DNA from: a virus
IMG/VR virus record: IMGVR_UViG_3300009154_004099
Coordinates: 1 to 32,201 of that record
Direction: 5' to 3' (one strand)
DNA length: 32,201 nucleotides
Part shown: in pieces, positions 17,998 through 29,491 of the stretch
Position numbering within the stretch: the first letter of the stretch is position 1
How the letters are laid out: every line of letters starts with the position of its first letter
Notes under the pieces: model-generated
The model's database searches: none
What the model was told of the DNA's origin: nothing
What the model saw: only the letters and a program-made list of their open reading frames with translations
Translations under genes and position numbers: made by a program

Positions 17998-18026
17998 TTG
18001 ACAAAATGGTTTGTTGGTAATATAAT
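17998..18026 (+). promoter_or_regulatory. Perfect consensus sigma70 promoter (TTGACA-N17-TATAAT)
   Basis: TTGACA (17998-18003), exactly 17 nt, and TATAAT (18021-18026) form an ideal host housekeeping promoter facing the 388-aa gene. Expected start is near 18033, giving a leader of about 27 nt with a good ribosome site (TAGGAG, 18047-18052). Such promoters drive early genes in T4-like phages, so this gene is predicted to be transcribed immediately after infection despite lying among virion genes. Confidence 0.85.
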
Positions 18027-18059: not shown

Positions 18060-19226
18060 ATGGCTACAGTTGCTGGTGTAAAAATCGCAAATAAAGTTAA
18101 AAAAACTAGAAACCCATTATTTTTTGATGAAAAATATACTGGTGGTGAACCAATTTGGGATACAGAACGTGCGCTCAAAATGGACGATGCAGAGTTTGAT
18201 CACCATCTTCGAAAAAGTTTTTACTATTATAACTATTATTACACTCAAAAAGAAACCAAAAAATATATCGTAGAGTGGGCAAAAACTACCAACAAATACA
18301 GTCATGAGCAGATCCGTGCTTATGAACGAAGTGGTGATAAATCTATACCAATGACGGCATGTAGTTTGATACATGCCAATCGAGCTGGCATGCCGTTTAA
18401 ACAGAGACATCTTGAGTTTTTACACAAATGCCTCTTAGAAGCCATTGAAACTTCTGAGCCTGAAATTATTAATATAGTCTCTCCCGAAGTTGTGGCTTAT
18501 CGTCCGACGATTCAAGACAGACTTAATGAAAAAACCAGTGAGCTGATTGGTACGATTGAGGGTCATTATGATGATGTTGTGAATAATGTCAAAGTCGATT
18601 TTAAACCATATGATTTTTTAGTAGCGAATACAGTACCTCAAGGGCAATTGTTTAAATATGAGAAAATTTATTCGCAGAGAAAAGATGAATTGGTAGCGGC
18701 ACAAGACAAACAAGACGATTTGTTGGTTGAGGGCTATAAGCACTATAAAACTGCTGATTTTAAAAGAGTTATAGCATTCATCGATGAATTGATGTCGGCA
18801 ATTGATCAATACCGCGGAGTTAAAAAGGCCACTAAAAAATTGCGAGTTAAGAAAGCGCCAAGTGCTGAAAAGTTGGTTGCTAGACTAAAATACACTAAAG
18901 AAGATAAAACACTCAAAGTAATAAGTATTAATCCTGCAGATATTATTGGTAGTCAAGAGCTTTGGTGTTTTGACACACGAACTCGTAAACTTTACAAATA
19001 TGTTGCGGCATCTTATCAAACTTTAACAATTAAAGGCACTAGTATTGTTAATTTTGATGTAGATAAGAGTGTTGGAAAAACTGTTAGGAAGCCTGAAGAA
19101 ACTTTAAAAGAGTTTTTCAAAGCCGGTAAAGTTCAATTGAGAAAGTTTCTAGACACCATTAAGGCAGTTGAAGTTAAAGCCAATGGTAGAATCAATGAAA
19201 ATCAGTTATTATTAAAAGTACAATAA
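18060..19226 (+). CDS. Conserved T4-like phage protein of unknown function, early-promoter driven
   Basis: A 388-residue basic, hydrophilic protein. The N-terminal half has an aromatic cluster (FYYYNYYYTQKETKKYI, residues about 54-70), then TACSLIHANRAGMPFKQRH.EFL, a helical-looking stretch. A Lys/Arg-rich linker sits near residues 253-275 (KKATKKLRVKKAP). The C-terminal part reads like beta strands (IIGSQELWCFDTRTRKLYKYV) followed by helix. No catalytic motif, signal peptide or membrane segment is visible. I associate this pattern with conserved unknown proteins near gp13 in aquatic T4-like phages. The gene has a perfect sigma70 promoter, a late-type element and a strong Shine-Dalgarno. Its basic composition would suit nucleic-acid contact or a head/DNA role, but that is speculation. 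Confidence 0.75.
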   Translation: MATVAGVKIANKVKKTRNPLFFDEKYTGGEPIWDTERALKMDDAEFDHHLRKSFYYYNYYYTQKETKKYIVEWAKTTNKYSHEQIRAYERSGDKSIPMTACSLIHANRAGMPFKQRHLEFLHKCLLEAIETSEPEIINIVSPEVVAYRPTIQDRLNEKTSELIGTIEGHYDDVVNNVKVDFKPYDFLVANTVPQGQLFKYEKIYSQRKDELVAAQDKQDDLLVEGYKHYKTADFKRVIAFIDELMSAIDQYRGVKKATKKLRVKKAPSAEKLVARLKYTKEDKTLKVISINPADIIGSQELWCFDTRTRKLYKYVAASYQTLTIKGTSIVNFDVDKSVGKTVRKPEETLKEFFKAGKVQLRKFLDTIKAVEVKANGRINENQLLLKVQ

Positions 19227-19234
19227 CCAGTCAC

Positions 19235-19280
19235 TATCTTCATCCTGTTTTTCGATAAATATTTAAACAGGATGAAGATA
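19235..19280 (+). promoter_or_regulatory. 16-bp perfect inverted repeat with late promoter in its loop and the gp13 ribosome site in its right arm
   Basis: TATCTTCATCCTGTTT (19235-19250) is the exact reverse complement of 19265-19280. The 14-nt loop (19251-19264) holds ATAAATA at 19255-19261, the gp13 late promoter. The right arm contains AGGA (19269-19272), the gp13 Shine-Dalgarno, 9 nt before the ATG at 19282. RNA reading through from the upstream gene would fold and hide the site. RNA started at the late promoter (about 19267) would lack the left arm. The same logic is established for early transcripts of T4 genes e, soc and I-TevI. No U-tract follows, so it is not a standard terminator. 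Confidence 0.8.
19255..19261 (+). promoter_or_regulatory. Putative T4-type late promoter (ATAAATA) for gp13
   Basis: ATAAATA (with G before it) lies 20 nt upstream of the gp13 ATG, inside the loop of the 16-bp inverted repeat. It is close to the T4 late consensus TATAAATA, with no -35 element. Confidence 0.65.
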
Positions 19281-19281
19281 T

Positions 19282-20412
19282 ATGGCCACACTCAAACCCG
19301 GACTCACTAGTACTCAAAGCATGCAAACCGACCACTTAGGTGGTCCTGGACCAATTGCTTTTGATGAAAGCCAATTAGATTCTTTAAATGAAAAACGTAA
19401 AGAAATAATTGATTATATAAGATTAAGACTTGCTGACCAAATTGTCGATGTAGAGTTAGACAAAGAACATTATGATTTAGCCATTAAGCAGGCATTGATC
19501 AAATATCGTCAGCGTAGTAGCAATAGTCAGGAAGATAGTTATGCGTTTTTGGATCTCATGCCAGAAGTTCAGGAATATATTCTTCCAAAAGAAATCATGA
19601 CGGTTAGATCTGTTTATAGACGTGGTATTGGTTCTGTAACAGGAACAACCGCCAGTCAATTTGAGCCATTTGCTAGCGGATATTTGAATACTTACATGCT
19701 AGTTGCTGGTCGTGTTGGTGGATTGGTTAACTATGAACTGTTTGTTGATTATCAGAAATTGTCAATGAAGATGTTTGGTGGTTTTATCGATTTTAATTGG
19801 AATTCTGTAACCAAAAAATTAACTTTGGTTAGAAAAATGCCATCATCTGGACATAATTATGTTAGAGTCGGGCAATTAACTGCTAATAGCACAGCTACTG
19901 GTAGTGATATTACTATCAAGACTGAAGATGTTTGGCACATTGCAGTTGGTGATTCTCTAACAATCGCTAATTGTAAAGTTGGTGGTTATAATAATAACTA
20001 TCGTGTAGCAACAGTTGACGATGAAAAAAAGACATTTACGGTAATTGCTAAGTCAGAATTACAGTCTACACAAGTAGTCACTCAGGATCTAAGAAGTACA
20101 CAAATCTGGAGTAATGTGACAGATGTCCCAGCAGAAACAGTATTGTTGAGACTCAACAACTACAAGCCAGATGTAATGCTACTCAATGACCATATGGTAT
20201 TTCCTTGGTTGCAAGAGTATGCATATAGTTTTGCTAAACGTATCGTGGGCGAAGCTCGTAGTAAATATGGGAGTGTTCCTGGACCACAGGGATCTACAAC
20301 TTTGAACGGAACTGCATTGTTGGCTGAAGCACAGGCAGAGATGGAAAAGTTGGAAGAAGAACTGAAAAATTTCATTGATGGTAGCGTTCCGATGTATTGG
20401 GTAATGGGTTGA
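19282..20412 (+). CDS. 13: Neck / head completion protein (T4 gp13-like)
   Basis: A 376-residue protein of the T4 gp13 family (309 residues in T4). Family features include the N-terminal helix K-R-K-E-I-I-D-Y-I-R-L-R-L-A with D..VD/NVEL...(Y/I)..AI..AL..Y (residues about 38-75), a central beta region (LMPEVQEYILPKEIMTVRSVYRRGIGS), and a C-terminal W.QEYA.S.AK.I.GE.RSKYGSVPGPQGSTTLNG segment with EAQAEMEKLEEEL and a final hydrophobic tail. gp13 joins the portal vertex with gp14 after packaging. It begins behind the inverted repeat at 19235-19280, which probably restricts translation to late mRNA. It is separated from its usual partner gp14, which is on the other strand. Confidence 0.88.
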   Translation: MATLKPGLTSTQSMQTDHLGGPGPIAFDESQLDSLNEKRKEIIDYIRLRLADQIVDVELDKEHYDLAIKQALIKYRQRSSNSQEDSYAFLDLMPEVQEYILPKEIMTVRSVYRRGIGSVTGTTASQFEPFASGYLNTYMLVAGRVGGLVNYELFVDYQKLSMKMFGGFIDFNWNSVTKKLTLVRKMPSSGHNYVRVGQLTANSTATGSDITIKTEDVWHIAVGDSLTIANCKVGGYNNNYRVATVDDEKKTFTVIAKSELQSTQVVTQDLRSTQIWSNVTDVPAETVLLRLNNYKPDVMLLNDHMVFPWLQEYAYSFAKRIVGEARSKYGSVPGPQGSTTLNGTALLAEAQAEMEKLEEELKNFIDGSVPMYWVMG

Positions 20413-20465: not shown

Positions 20466-21098
20466 ATGTCAATAATTGCTATTTGTGGATTTATAGGTTC
20501 GGGTAAAAATACTGCTGCTGATTATTTGGTTAGTGATTGTAAATTTGTTAGAGCTAGTTTTGCATCATCTCTTAAAGATGCCGTATCTTCTGTTTTTGGG
20601 TGGGATAGAGAATTATTAGAAGGTATTACAGAAGAATCTAGACTTTGGCGAGAAACTGTGGACGTTTGGTGGAGCGACCGCCTAAACATACCCAACCTAA
20701 CTCCACGATGGGTTTTGCAACATTGGGGGACTGATTTAATTCGTAATAATTTTCATCAAGACATCTGGATCGCCAGTTTGGAGTATAAATTATCTCAATT
20801 AGGTGATCGAGTAGTGATCAGTGATTGTAGATTTGTCAATGAAGTCACTACTATTAAAAAGTTGGGCGGCAAAGTTATTTGGGTTCGCAGAGGGTCATTG
20901 CCAAATTGGCATGATTGCGCAATCAAAACTCTATCGGCAGAAAGAGAACAATTACAACTACCAGAAAAAAGCATGTATAGCAAATACCCCAAGATTCATA
21001 TTAGTGAATGGGCTTGGTTATCGACCGATTTTGATGCAGTGATCGATAATAATGCCACAATTTATGATTTATATCAACAGCTTGAAGATCTAATTTAA
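20466..21098 (+). CDS. 1: Deoxynucleoside monophosphate kinase (T4 gp1-like)
   Basis: A 210-residue P-loop kinase. Walker A is G8-F-I-G-S-G-K14-N-T16, matching the G-x-x-x-S-G-K-D/N-T of T4 gp1, followed by the family's A-D-Y/F-L. Further family-like parts are ASFASSLKDAVSSVFGWDRELLEG, R.VLQ.WGTDL.R, and VVISDCRFVNEV, a Walker B-like strand. In T4 the enzyme phosphorylates dGMP, dTMP and hydroxymethyl-dCMP for phage DNA synthesis; the substrate range here is unknown, and whether this phage has modified cytosine cannot be told. T4 gp1 is 241 residues. A good Shine-Dalgarno (AAGGAA, 20455-20460) precedes the ATG. Its 3' end overlaps the convergent HNH-like gene by 4 nt. It is the one metabolic gene in a morphogenesis cluster. 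Confidence 0.87.
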   Translation: MSIIAICGFIGSGKNTAADYLVSDCKFVRASFASSLKDAVSSVFGWDRELLEGITEESRLWRETVDVWWSDRLNIPNLTPRWVLQHWGTDLIRNNFHQDIWIASLEYKLSQLGDRVVISDCRFVNEVTTIKKLGGKVIWVRRGSLPNWHDCAIKTLSAEREQLQLPEKSMYSKYPKIHISEWAWLSTDFDAVIDNNATIYDLYQQLEDLI

Positions 21099-21445
21099 AA
21101 GTCAGGCACGATGTCCGCTGGGGCCCAAGATAGTTTGCCTTTAAAAACTTCTTGTTGACAGTTTAGGCAAATAGTTTTCAAGTTACTGGTGGAATTATTT
21201 TTTAGATTTCCGTCCAGATGAAAAACTCTTAATTGATCTTCCGGATATTTGGCTTTGAAGCCGCACTTTTCACAGCGTTCTTTTTTTCTATATCCATTCT
21301 TAAACCAAGACGGAGCTATTGGTTTAATTTTCTTTCCTTTTCTAATACATTGATCACATAGTTTTCTATAGTGAGTTTTGTTATTAGCATGATAGTTTAT
21401 GGCGGCTGGATTGGTTGAGCATACTGCGCATAGTGGACGGTCCAT
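21095..21445 (-). CDS. Small HNH-like / zinc-ribbon endonuclease
   Basis: A 116-residue protein with four CxxC knuckles: C6/C9, C30/C33, C58/C61 and C93/C96. Between the last two pairs lies VFHLDGN...NN...SNL..IC, which fits a beta-beta-alpha HNH core (H76, D78-G-N80, N88). Free-standing HNH nucleases of this kind are common mobile or accessory genes in T4-like phages. The usual D/E-H pair is F-H here, so activity is not assured and a pure zinc-binding role remains possible. The first Cys pair starts at residue 6, supporting the chosen start. There is no Shine-Dalgarno, and an ATAAATA element ends 5 nt before the ATG. It is inserted minus-strand between gp1 and gp18. Confidence 0.7.
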   Translation of the reverse strand: MDRPLCAVCSTNPAAINYHANNKTHYRKLCDQCIRKGKKIKPIAPSWFKNGYRKKERCEKCGFKAKYPEDQLRVFHLDGNLKNNSTSNLKTICLNCQQEVFKGKLSWAPADIVPDF

Positions 21446-24783: not shown

Positions 24784-24810
24784 AAAATAGGAGCGCATTG
24801 CTCCTATTTT
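24784..24810. terminator. Bidirectional intrinsic terminator between gp18 and the homing endonuclease
   Basis: AAAATAGGAGC (24784-24794) pairs perfectly with GCTCCTATTTT (24800-24810) around a 5-nt loop (GCATT). U-tracts lie on both sides when read from either strand. It serves gp18 on the plus strand. On the minus strand it overlaps the first base of the endonuclease stop codon (24810-24812), so it can also end that transcript. Confidence 0.9.
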
Positions 24811-26465
24811 TATGACTGAGATATATTCAAAACCCACTTGCCACTACCGCAGTCCCAAATACGCCTGTACCCCTGACCGATTCTATTTTCGTACTCAGTT
24901 AATGATTGGTCATCTGAACTATTTTTTCTTAATTGATATCTATGAATTCTAATATCATCACCACTTTTAAAATACCAATAATTAACAGCAGTATTACCTT
25001 TAAACTCAAACCCTAAAGTTTTATATAAATTACCATCACTCCATCTACGATCACTAAATGACAATATTTCTACAGGATGATGATTTAAAATAAAATGTTT
25101 TAGTAATTTACCAGCAGCACCCACAATATGGGTGTTGAGCTTCCCACAAAATCTAGACAACTCCCAATGTTTTTCCTGTGATATATGGCCTTTGGCCTTT
25201 GTTAATTTAGAAAAAGTCATCAATGACAGCAATTCGTCCTCATAATATAATCCTAATTTAATAGAAGAGTTAGCGAATCCTTGTATATGATTTGCGTCTA
25301 AAAACTTTCTTGCATCGGATGAAGTTACTGATTTTACTTGACATTTTCTGGCATAATACGTTTTATTTGCGGCAACGTGCAGTATATGTCTTATACGGTC
25401 ACAAACAATATCCTTTTTATATTGCCATTCGTCCTCAAAAATTTGAATAAGACGTATGTTTTTTTCTTCGGCCAATTTCAATTTTTTTAAATGAAATGTT
25501 TTTGATACACGTTGATCGTTGTGCCAAAATAATCCATGGAATTCAAATCCTACTTTCTGGACTGAGCAATATATGTCTATTTCTTTTCTATCCAAAATTC
25601 TCACATTATTTTCAGTTTCTATACACAAAGATTGATTTATATATTTTCTTAATTCGTTTTCCTTGTTAGAACCTTTATTTAAGTGACCACATTCTGCACA
25701 AGCAGTGCCGGTGTGATTGATTCTCCATTTAAATGTTTCAGATGGTAATTCATCAACCTTGTTGCATACAATGCATGAAAATTCAATTCTATCGCAAGGC
25801 TGTGTATATTGTTGACTATCGTTGATGCTAGTGGATTTGATGACACTAATGCTGGGACACAATGATTTCCATTTTTCTAGAGATCTGTGCCCAACAAAAT
25901 CAATCCACTGTTGGGATTTTGAGTAGTGTTCAGATCCATAATTTTTAAGCATAGTAACTTTGCATTTCTCAGCATGATCGGGCAATTGGCCTGGATTGTT
26001 TACACCATATTTTTTTTTAATCGTTTCTCTTCCTTTTACATTTAAATTTTTTGATCCATCAATCATTCTTTGCCTTGATTTATCTGAAACAAGTGCCCCA
26101 TATTTTTCAACCATAGTGGCTTTTCTTTTTTCCTGAGTTTGAGTCAATTTAGCAATGTTCTCAACGCCATATTTTTCTAATAAAGTTTTTTTTTGTTTTT
26201 CTATCCTAAGAGCTTGTCGATCATCAGTAGTGGCCAAAACATTTCGGCATTTAGTAGAGCATGTAGTTTTACCTAAAGATTTAACAATGCCACTGCATAC
26301 ATAACAATAGGGGCTTCGGTCATTGACTAGCGCATCAATTTGCAAACTTAATTGTACATTTGGATATAAGGAATTTAATAGCTGAATCCATTCAGGATTT
26401 TTTAGTGCAACTCTTTGCCGCCACCTGGGGGCAATTTGTTTTAATGATTCTTTTAATGTTGGCAT
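24810..26465 (-). CDS. Free-standing homing endonuclease, Vsr-like (EDxHD-type) nuclease with NUMOD-like repeats
   Basis: A 551-residue protein. A zinc knuckle comes first (C54xxC57, C69xxxC73). Four repeats centred on K-(Y/N)-Y-G or E-K-Y-G follow (KYG near residues 98, 121 and 152; NYG near 175), with intervening EKRKATM/EKCKVTM helices that resemble DNA-reading NUMOD-type repeats. A second zinc ribbon is CIVC (231-234) with CAEC (256-259). The nuclease core has E295-I-D297, V-G-F-E308-F-H-G-L-F-W-H315 and IRLIQIFEDEW (337-347), the pattern of the Vsr-fold phage homing endonucleases (EDxHD group). A C-terminal domain (about 370-545) includes LDANHIQGF and HRYQLRK. It sits between gp18 and gp19 on the opposite strand, typical of a mobile gene at a conserved junction. 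No intron or intein is seen in either neighbour. Confidence 0.85.
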   Translation of the reverse strand: MPTLKESLKQIAPRWRQRVALKNPEWIQLLNSLYPNVQLSLQIDALVNDRSPYCYVCSGIVKSLGKTTCSTKCRNVLATTDDRQALRIEKQKKTLLEKYGVENIAKLTQTQEKRKATMVEKYGALVSDKSRQRMIDGSKNLNVKGRETIKKKYGVNNPGQLPDHAEKCKVTMLKNYGSEHYSKSQQWIDFVGHRSLEKWKSLCPSISVIKSTSINDSQQYTQPCDRIEFSCIVCNKVDELPSETFKWRINHTGTACAECGHLNKGSNKENELRKYINQSLCIETENNVRILDRKEIDIYCSVQKVGFEFHGLFWHNDQRVSKTFHLKKLKLAEEKNIRLIQIFEDEWQYKKDIVCDRIRHILHVAANKTYYARKCQVKSVTSSDARKFLDANHIQGFANSSIKLGLYYEDELLSLMTFSKLTKAKGHISQEKHWELSRFCGKLNTHIVGAAGKLLKHFILNHHPVEILSFSDRRWSDGNLYKTLGFEFKGNTAVNYWYFKSGDDIRIHRYQLRKNSSDDQSLTEYENRIGQGYRRIWDCGSGKWVLNISQS

Positions 26466-27334: not shown

Positions 27335-29491
27335 ATGGCAACACAAGACTCAAATTTAGGTCCAAATTCTTCAGCTTCTACAACAGAAAATGCGTCTGTA
27401 GATTCTTCTGCTGGCTCCTACTTAATAAAAAAGGGCGACAATTTAACTAAAATCGCCAAAAATAATGGAACTAGTATAGATGCCATTCTCAAATTAAATC
27501 CACAAATTACCAATAGAGATTTGATATATGCTGGATCTAACTTAACGCTTCCAGCACCCCCCACATCAACAGTTACCGAAACACAAACAGATTTGAGTAA
27601 TGTAAAAACTGATGACGGGAATGGTCAAACAACAATGGCACCTGCGGCAGTGGATAATAACAAGGCACAGGAAGCGTCTCCCGATAACGAGGATATAGAA
27701 GGCTATGCAAATGGCGGCGCTGCTGGCGCAAGTCAGGCAGAGAATGATGCAATAAATAAGGCCTTGGGTGGTGGATTGGGATCAAAACCAATGAGCATAA
27801 CTGGTTCAAGTTCAGGATCACCAGCAACTCAAGTGTCTGGAAAAACTATTACCCCGTTTTTAAGAGACTATCAACACGCCAGTAAGTTATTCCGTGGTGG
27901 TCAGCTTCCTGATGGTCAGCAGGGCTTAATGCCTAAAAATGGTTTTTTATTCCATGTCGTATTTGATTTAGCCCCAAATATTACTAGAGCAGTTAGTTTG
28001 GTTGAACTAGGAATGTTAGTAAAAGCAATCACTCTCCCAAAATTTACTGTAGAAATGAAGCAACAAAATGCATATAATAGAGTGAATTACACTCAGACCA
28101 AAATTAAATATGATCCAGTGAGTATATCATTTCATGATGATAGTGCTAACGTTGTGAGAGATTTTTGGTTTAGTTATTTTAATTATTATTATAGAGATAG
28201 TGATTATTCAGAATCTCTGTATCAAATTAAACACAAATATAATGAGAGATCTGCCGTTGATTGGGGATATTCACCAAAAAACTCAACAAATTCAGAATTT
28301 TTAAATAGTATAAGAATTTTCAGCTTGCATCAGAAAAATTTTAGTGAGTATGTTTTAGTAAATCCTATTATAAAATCTTTTAAACACGGGGACCATAAGT
28401 ATGACGAATCAAATACATTAATGAGCCACGATATGGTTGTTGAGTATGAAACAGTCTTATATTATAGTGGAACTATTAGTGAGGATACTGTAAAAGGTTT
28501 TGGCACCATACGTTATGATAAGACCCCATCTCCTAATTTAGGAAAAGAAGAAAACTTGATGGGCCCTGGGTCAGCAACTGATAGAACAAATAAAGGGTCT
28601 AATAGACTATCATCAGACAAACCTGATGGGTCAAAACAGCCTTTAGAAAATCCAAAAAATAATCCCCCAGCTAAAGATTGGATTACTAGTGCTGGTGATA
28701 GCATATTTGGAAAAGATAGTTTTATAAGTAATAAAATTTTTGTACCGATAGCCAAATCAATTGCGCATAATGCAACCTCCAAAGTTACTACGGCAATTAA
28801 CAAAACAGTAGGACAATCAATAGCAAAAGTTCAGGGCGCTCTTGGCCCAACAATTGGTGGAATAGTTGTGCCAGCAGTTACTGAAGGATTTGGGGGAATA
28901 CCAAACATAGGATCTTATGTAGTTAATAAAGGATCAAATATTCTTTCAAATGCTTCAAATAAAACACCAATAGTTGATCAAAGTATCAATCAATCCAACA
29001 ATACTCCCAACCAAATAGCATTTTCGTCAACAGTGAGTGAGTTTTCCATAACTGATCAAAATGTGACTCAGATTATTCCGATGACTAATATGACTAATCT
29101 GACTAATATGGCGACTGCTCTTAACATTACTGACCAAGGCCTGCCAGGGGCAAATTTAACAGATACTGAAAATTTACAGGTGTCATCTATTGATAATCGA
29201 ATAAAAATGTTAACCAAGTCGATGTCTGATGCACAAACCCAACTAGATAAATATCAACCACAGTTGTCGATGGCATTGGAAAATATTAAATTTTTTAATA
29301 AAAAAATGAATGAAAAAATATCGAATGGCTCTTCTGCAAGTTCACCAGTTATAAAAAAACTTCAAAGCTATTTAGATCAGCAAATCGAAATTAAAGCATT
29401 TGCTGAACAACAAGTTTCCGAAGCAGATCAACAGTTGATTAGTTTAAAAAAATCAAAACAACTTTTAGTTAAGGAGCTTGTTAAAAAATGA
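27335..29491 (+). CDS. LysM-domain protein with tail-tube-like fold and C-terminal coiled coil (probable baseplate/tube protein)
   Basis: A 718-residue protein. A LysM domain is clear at about 28-72 (SYLIKKGDNLTKIAKNNGTSIDAILKLNP...L..AGSNLTLP). A low-complexity Ser/Thr/Pro linker follows. Residues about 195-400 (GFLFHVVFDL...LVKAITLPKFTVEMKQQNAYNRVNYTQTKIKYDPVSISFHDD...FWFSYFNYYY) resemble the tube-fold domains of gp19/gp54-type tail proteins. Residues about 615-718 are heptad-like helix (IDNRIKMLTKSM.DAQTQLD..., then QQIEIKAFAEQQVSEADQQL). LysM domains occur in contractile-tail baseplates, for example T4 gp53. A role as tube initiator or baseplate tube protein is likely, but I cannot assign a T4 gene number. 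The start ATG has no Shine-Dalgarno. It heads a plus-strand operon running to gp16, and its stop overlaps the next gene by 4 nt. Confidence 0.72.
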   Translation: MATQDSNLGPNSSASTTENASVDSSAGSYLIKKGDNLTKIAKNNGTSIDAILKLNPQITNRDLIYAGSNLTLPAPPTSTVTETQTDLSNVKTDDGNGQTTMAPAAVDNNKAQEASPDNEDIEGYANGGAAGASQAENDAINKALGGGLGSKPMSITGSSSGSPATQVSGKTITPFLRDYQHASKLFRGGQLPDGQQGLMPKNGFLFHVVFDLAPNITRAVSLVELGMLVKAITLPKFTVEMKQQNAYNRVNYTQTKIKYDPVSISFHDDSANVVRDFWFSYFNYYYRDSDYSESLYQIKHKYNERSAVDWGYSPKNSTNSEFLNSIRIFSLHQKNFSEYVLVNPIIKSFKHGDHKYDESNTLMSHDMVVEYETVLYYSGTISEDTVKGFGTIRYDKTPSPNLGKEENLMGPGSATDRTNKGSNRLSSDKPDGSKQPLENPKNNPPAKDWITSAGDSIFGKDSFISNKIFVPIAKSIAHNATSKVTTAINKTVGQSIAKVQGALGPTIGGIVVPAVTEGFGGIPNIGSYVVNKGSNILSNASNKTPIVDQSINQSNNTPNQIAFSSTVSEFSITDQNVTQIIPMTNMTNLTNMATALNITDQGLPGANLTDTENLQVSSIDNRIKMLTKSMSDAQTQLDKYQPQLSMALENIKFFNKKMNEKISNGSSASSPVIKKLQSYLDQQIEIKAFAEQQVSEADQQLISLKKSKQLLVKELVKK

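Follow-up and report, generated by a model that had tools for sequence, protein, structure and literature searches.

The window, by which we mean the whole stretch of DNA analysed, is a 32,201-base virus record in IMG/VR, where it is classed as linear; the features considered here are listed in Table 1. The 376-aa product of the gene downstream of the hairpin matches PHROG 211, head-tail adaptor Ad2 of the T4 gp13 type (E = 8.6e-29), and this gene is adjoined by the dNMP kinase and tail sheath genes. Phage records yielded no hit at the nucleotide level, and the named relatives of the window's gp13, which include GAP32, PA5oct and Atu_ph07, were reached by protein. Two endonuclease genes lie antisense farther along the window, an HNH endonuclease (21095-21445, minus strand) between the dNMP kinase and tail sheath genes, and a 551-aa homing endonuclease (24810-26465, minus strand) between the tail sheath and tail tube genes. 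They are followed by a 718-aa ORF (27335-29491, plus strand) in which a transglycosylase/endolysin-like N-terminus is joined to a tail-tube-like region.

Table 1. Features of the gp13 leader and its surroundings, in window coordinates.
Feature	Coordinates	Strand	Remarks
Sigma70 promoter, TTGACA-17-TATAAT	17998..18026	+	12/12 match; presumed early promoter of the 388-aa gene
388-aa ORF, PHROG 11903	18060..19226	+	Presumed early gene reading into gp13
Left arm of hairpin	19235..19250	+	TATCTTCATCCTGTTT; present only in the read-through RNA
Loop between arms, 14 nt	19251..19264	+	
T4-type late promoter -10 element, ATAAATA	19255..19261	+	In hairpin loop; assigned from sequence
Right arm of hairpin	19265..19280	+	AAACAGGATGAAGATA
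Shine-Dalgarno of gp13, AGGA	19269..19272	+	Inside right arm, 9 nt 5' of the ATG at 19282
gp13-type neck / head-tail adaptor gene, 376 aa	19282..20412	+	PHROG 211 match; named neck proteins in phages

An earlier note on this DNA had described a perfect 16-bp inverted repeat with ATAAATA in its loop and the gp13 Shine-Dalgarno in its right arm, preceded by a perfect sigma70 promoter at 17998, and all of these elements were recovered at exactly those positions: the arms are complementary at 16 of 16 positions, and both hexamers of the promoter match the consensus in full, with a 17-nt spacer. No other inverted repeat of this kind occurs between 17500 and 20500. The RNA fold of the hairpin region has an energy of -24.7 kcal/mol (z = -7.3), equalled by none of 200 shuffled sequences, and a scan of the window against Rfam gave no match. 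TAAATA occurs about 55 times on the two strands of the window, and it is associated with a stem of more than 10 pairs only at the gp13 site and its mirror image. Of the window's 18 genes, 8 have the motif 10 to 60 nt before the start, where 2.3 would be expected, and this excess is consistent with the motif being a T4-type late promoter. With the spacing known from T4, late RNA is predicted to start at about 19267, which excludes the left arm.

The sigma70 promoter ahead of the 388-aa gene is widely kept. The 388-aa start could be located in 75 sequences (the window and relatives). In 59% of these, the highest-scoring sigma70 match ahead of it reached at least 9.7 of 12, compared with 4.5% of shuffled sequences, and in many relatives a perfect 12/12 match stands 53-62 nt before the 388-aa ATG. 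In phiM12, Cr30 and Moby, the 388-aa homologue is found among metabolic and replication genes, not virion genes. The conserved promoter and this neighbourhood together suggest that the 388-aa gene is an early gene. Between the sigma70 promoter and the hairpin, no terminator-like site was found on the plus strand. The 388-aa family is widespread in T4-like phages; the structural model of the window's protein is locally confident (mean pLDDT 86.6), and a fold search with it returned no PDB match, that is, no solved fold.

Based on this arrangement, we propose that early in infection host sigma70 RNA polymerase would transcribe the 388-aa gene and continue into gp13, giving a read-through RNA that contains both arms, so that the 16-bp hairpin would hide the Shine-Dalgarno and gp13 would go untranslated. 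Later, the T4-type late promoter, with its -10 element in the hairpin loop, would start RNA at about 19267, beyond the left arm, and this RNA, unable to form the hairpin, would be translated. The predicted cost of opening positions 19267-19296 (the predicted late start to codon 5) was 20.9 kcal/mol in the read-through RNA and 1.7 kcal/mol in the late RNA, and the predicted probability that the AGGA is unpaired was 0.00 and 0.66, respectively. When relatives with an adjacent 388-aa homologue were treated in the same way, the early RNA was costlier to open than the late RNA in 85 of 85 cases, with medians of 17.6 and 3.2 kcal/mol. Furthermore, 92 leaders have both the hairpin and a late element, and in every one of them the predicted late RNA would begin downstream of the 5' base of each enclosing pair. 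A late-transcription gene was sought in the window and none was identified there; with T4 gp55 as query, 7 of the 11 large relatives searched showed weak similarity, at 30-36% identity over ∼75-110 aa and with E values between 7e-7 and 1e-5.

Searches of viral contigs for gp13 produced ∼200 loci, with 129 distinct leaders that could be read, and these supply natural controls for dependence on the upstream gene. A leader was counted as carrying the hairpin when the stem had at least 8 pairs and an energy of -12 kcal/mol or lower. By this measure, of the 86 leaders in which the 388-aa homologue is the immediate upstream neighbour, 76 carry the hairpin. It is also present in all 11 leaders of GAP32-like jumbo phages, where another co-directional gene lies upstream, and in none of the 8 leaders with a divergently oriented neighbour, which come from Atu_ph07, Phosso, Vibrio phage 2.275 and five contigs. 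After clustering gp13 at 80% identity and applying a z-score criterion, the hairpin was counted in 27 of 36 clusters versus 0 of 6 (Fisher p = 0.001), and fold z-scores differed between the same cluster classes at p = 7e-5; these p-values are approximate, since the leader classes were defined with the data already in view, and clustering removes relatedness only in part.

Insertions between the two genes are informative as well. In one relative (L175), an antisense HNH endonuclease gene separates gp13 from the 388-aa gene, and there is no hairpin; a search on the far side of the inserted gene for the old left arm revealed no visible split hairpin. The hairpin is also absent in L068, where the same position is occupied by an antisense gene with a GIY-YIG-like start (recognised by reading, with no Pfam match). 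Three other relatives (L042, L232 and L233) have a wider gap between the 388-aa gene and gp13, with small co-directional ORFs inside it in L232 and L233, and here the hairpin remains at gp13. The coupling of the switch to an upstream early gene, as earlier claimed, is borne out by the sigma70 consensus in most relatives and by the absence of the hairpin where the upstream gene is not co-directional. When all late-promoter genes of seven large relatives were compared, hairpins showed no overall difference with neighbour orientation, and the dependence on orientation is, judged from these leaders, specific to gp13.

A requirement for a co-directional upstream gene is also what would be predicted if the hairpin were mainly an intrinsic terminator, or a 3'-end stabiliser, of the early 388-aa message, with the hiding of the gp13 start being incidental. 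Some of the hairpins may indeed also end transcription, as 34 of 91 are followed by at least 5 T in 8 nt, and those of the GAP32-like phages end in a long T run. However, the window has neither a T tract after the stem nor a terminator call at the hairpin, and across the leaders the stem holds a steady distance to the gp13 ATG (sd of the SD-to-ATG distance 2.4 nt) but a variable one to the upstream stop codon (sd 12.3 nt). A terminator of the 388-aa message would not be expected to stay with gp13 when other co-directional ORFs or genes come between or upstream, as it does in the three wide-gap relatives and the GAP32-like phages, nor to be missing after the 388-aa homologue in phiM12 and Cr30, and it would have no need to enclose the late -10 element or to cover the Shine-Dalgarno. 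Since there is no T tract in the window and the stem holds its position relative to the gp13 ATG, we conclude that termination, although possible as a role in the third of relatives with T tracts and perhaps in the GAP32-like group, is not the common function, and we regard this explanation of the hairpin as improbable.

If the hairpin acts as a switch on gp13 translation, pairing would be expected to outlast sequence. The arms differ greatly in sequence between phages, and their pairing is kept. Of the first 44 non-redundant leaders, nearly all have a hairpin that encloses TAAATA and extends over the Shine-Dalgarno, and in the leaders compared the Shine-Dalgarno is always covered by the right arm. 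Mean duplex energy was -18.7 kcal/mol for a phage's own arms and -7.1 kcal/mol for arms swapped between phages, and in 1830 of 1892 comparisons the own arms gave the stronger pairing. Counting from the Shine-Dalgarno, most registers contained five or six base-pair types; these counts take predicted pairs only and so give 100% pairing by construction, leaving the diversity of pair types as the informative quantity. An alignment of the leaders with MAFFT, followed by RNAalifold, had returned no consensus pairs, as the fast-changing arms were misaligned, and it was therefore replaced by the swapped-arm comparison and the counts anchored at the Shine-Dalgarno. Compensatory change, which the earlier note had proposed to look for in related phages, is abundant, and it includes the change of A19236-T19279 to G-C in the nearest relative (L003, 88% gp13 identity); the outermost pair did not hold there, since T19235-A19280 has become C-A and this terminal pairing is lost. 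In the relatives, it is structure rather than sequence that is conserved. Thus, the claim that the early RNA would hide the gp13 ribosome site finds support both in the compensatory arms and in the predicted opening costs.

A perfect palindrome surrounding a -10 element could instead act as DNA, either as an operator through which a dimeric regulator would control the late promoter, or as a cruciform. The free variation of the arms, with pairing kept, is difficult to reconcile with a bound sequence, and an operator would not depend on the direction of the upstream gene. The right arm, in addition, always lies over the Shine-Dalgarno. Moreover, G-U pairs favour the mRNA strand, numbering 57 there versus 28 on the complement, with the excess falling on the mRNA strand in 24 hairpins and on the complement in 6, a bias that points to selection at the RNA level. 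Given the freedom of arm sequence and this bias, a role as DNA operator is unlikely, and we give the DNA explanation as a whole very little weight. That the palindrome arose by chance or is neutral, which has nothing in its favour except the few relatives without a hairpin, can be dismissed in view of the z-score, the recurrence of the hairpin in leaders of differing sequence, and the compensatory changes that already contradict it.

We therefore return to the reading that the hairpin acts in cis, as an RNA switch that times the gp13 neck gene; on comparative and predicted-fold evidence, we assign this reading a probability of about 0.86. Since the arrangement is kept with matching arm changes in dozens of phages, the hairpin very likely represents a built-in timer for virus assembly.

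The leaders that depart from the common form were also considered. No strong hairpin was seen in ten of the leaders with an adjacent 388-aa gene; PA5oct is one of these, and several others belong to a single divergent group (L214-L222). Four further leaders outside the named groups are also without the hairpin. The layout can vary, with the -10 element lying in the left arm in the GAP32-like phages and in the loop in the window. PA5oct-like marine phages have instead a short hairpin, with the left arm placed downstream of the -10 element but ahead of the expected start (e.g., GATAAATACTCTACATCATAGTAGAGG). This hairpin would act in the same way, and we make no claim for it because it is too weak (z about -0.4 to -2.3). 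In the PA5oct-like phages L224, L230, L231, L238 and L240-L242, the short hairpin is directly 3' of TAAATA, and its left arm would be 5' of the late start. Tentatively, and at somewhat less than even odds, the switch may be kept, or rebuilt in other layouts, wherever gp13 follows an early co-directional gene, and dropped once read-through becomes impossible, in which case early silence of gp13 would be a general and strongly selected need of T4-like assembly in this phage group.

The logic of such a switch is already known, as the earlier note had stated for T4 e, soc and I-TevI, and is described in two reviews (PMC3014915, PMC2988022). In T4 gene e, which encodes lysozyme, a long early RNA hides the Shine-Dalgarno in a helix, and a late promoter (TATAAATA) in the 5' part of the helix allows the late RNA to escape (PMC3014915). 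The gp13 leader shows the same predicted traits, with its Shine-Dalgarno paired in the long RNA, a late RNA that, from its expected start, would lack the 5' strand of the helix, and an upstream sigma70 promoter at 17998 predicted to be able to read into the gene. Identical calculations on T4 e gave opening costs of 16.4 and 1.7 kcal/mol, comparable with those of the window, although e is a lysis gene whereas gp13 is a neck gene, and the T4 e leader has a weaker fold (-14.9 kcal/mol). Several T4 relatives that carry e have no apparent leader structure (PMC3014915). The start sites of T4 soc, 49, 25 and 26 also lie in RNA structure, and the T4 genes with hidden start sites are late genes on transcripts from early or middle promoters (PMC3014915, PMC2988022). 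In I-TevI, I-TevII, I-TevIII, segB and Aeh1 mobE, transcripts from an upstream promoter bury the ribosome binding site, and those from a late promoter next to the gene expose it (PMC2988022); these share the switch logic with gp13, but they are mobile endonuclease genes, whereas gp13 is a virion gene whose arrangement is conserved across many phage lineages. In phage CBB, a relative of GAP32, ATAAATA has been predicted as a late promoter (PMC5259590).

The novelty that the earlier note had seen in the use of this logic for a neck protein holds in part. No report of such a switch for gene 13 was found in the open literature searched, a scope that leaves out most subscription journals, and none of soc, 49, 25 and 26 is neck gene 13. 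The novelty is nevertheless modest, because control by RNA structure has already been listed (PMC2988022) for soc, 25 and 26, which are structural or assembly genes like gp13. In T4's own gene 13, no TAAATA is found within 60 nt of the ATG, and the GGGGCC hairpin present there does not include the Shine-Dalgarno; judged from this leader, the gene is without such a switch. The proposed gp13 switch is thus the known logic of T4 e, soc, 49 and I-TevI in a new gene, with conservation that is unusually broad and well controlled.

Few T4 cases are known, and gp13 offers a single gene that keeps its switch in many phages, with heavy compensatory change and natural on/off controls. Why early synthesis of a neck protein has to be avoided becomes a directly testable question, and the set of leaders provides ready comparative data for early/late switching by RNA structure. 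The signature, a late -10 element enclosed by a hairpin that covers the Shine-Dalgarno, can be searched for in uncultivated phages. Similar structures were seen at other genes of the relatives. In a 289-kb relative, a SprT-like 161-aa gene (L107:3286, plus strand) has a second strong hairpin (-25.8 kcal/mol) around TAAATA, covering the start region. A gene of ∼1100 aa near gp13, probably tail sheath (L140:13295, minus strand; L132:8830, plus strand), has a TAAATA hairpin that covers its GAGG Shine-Dalgarno and recurs with identical sequence in a second related phage.
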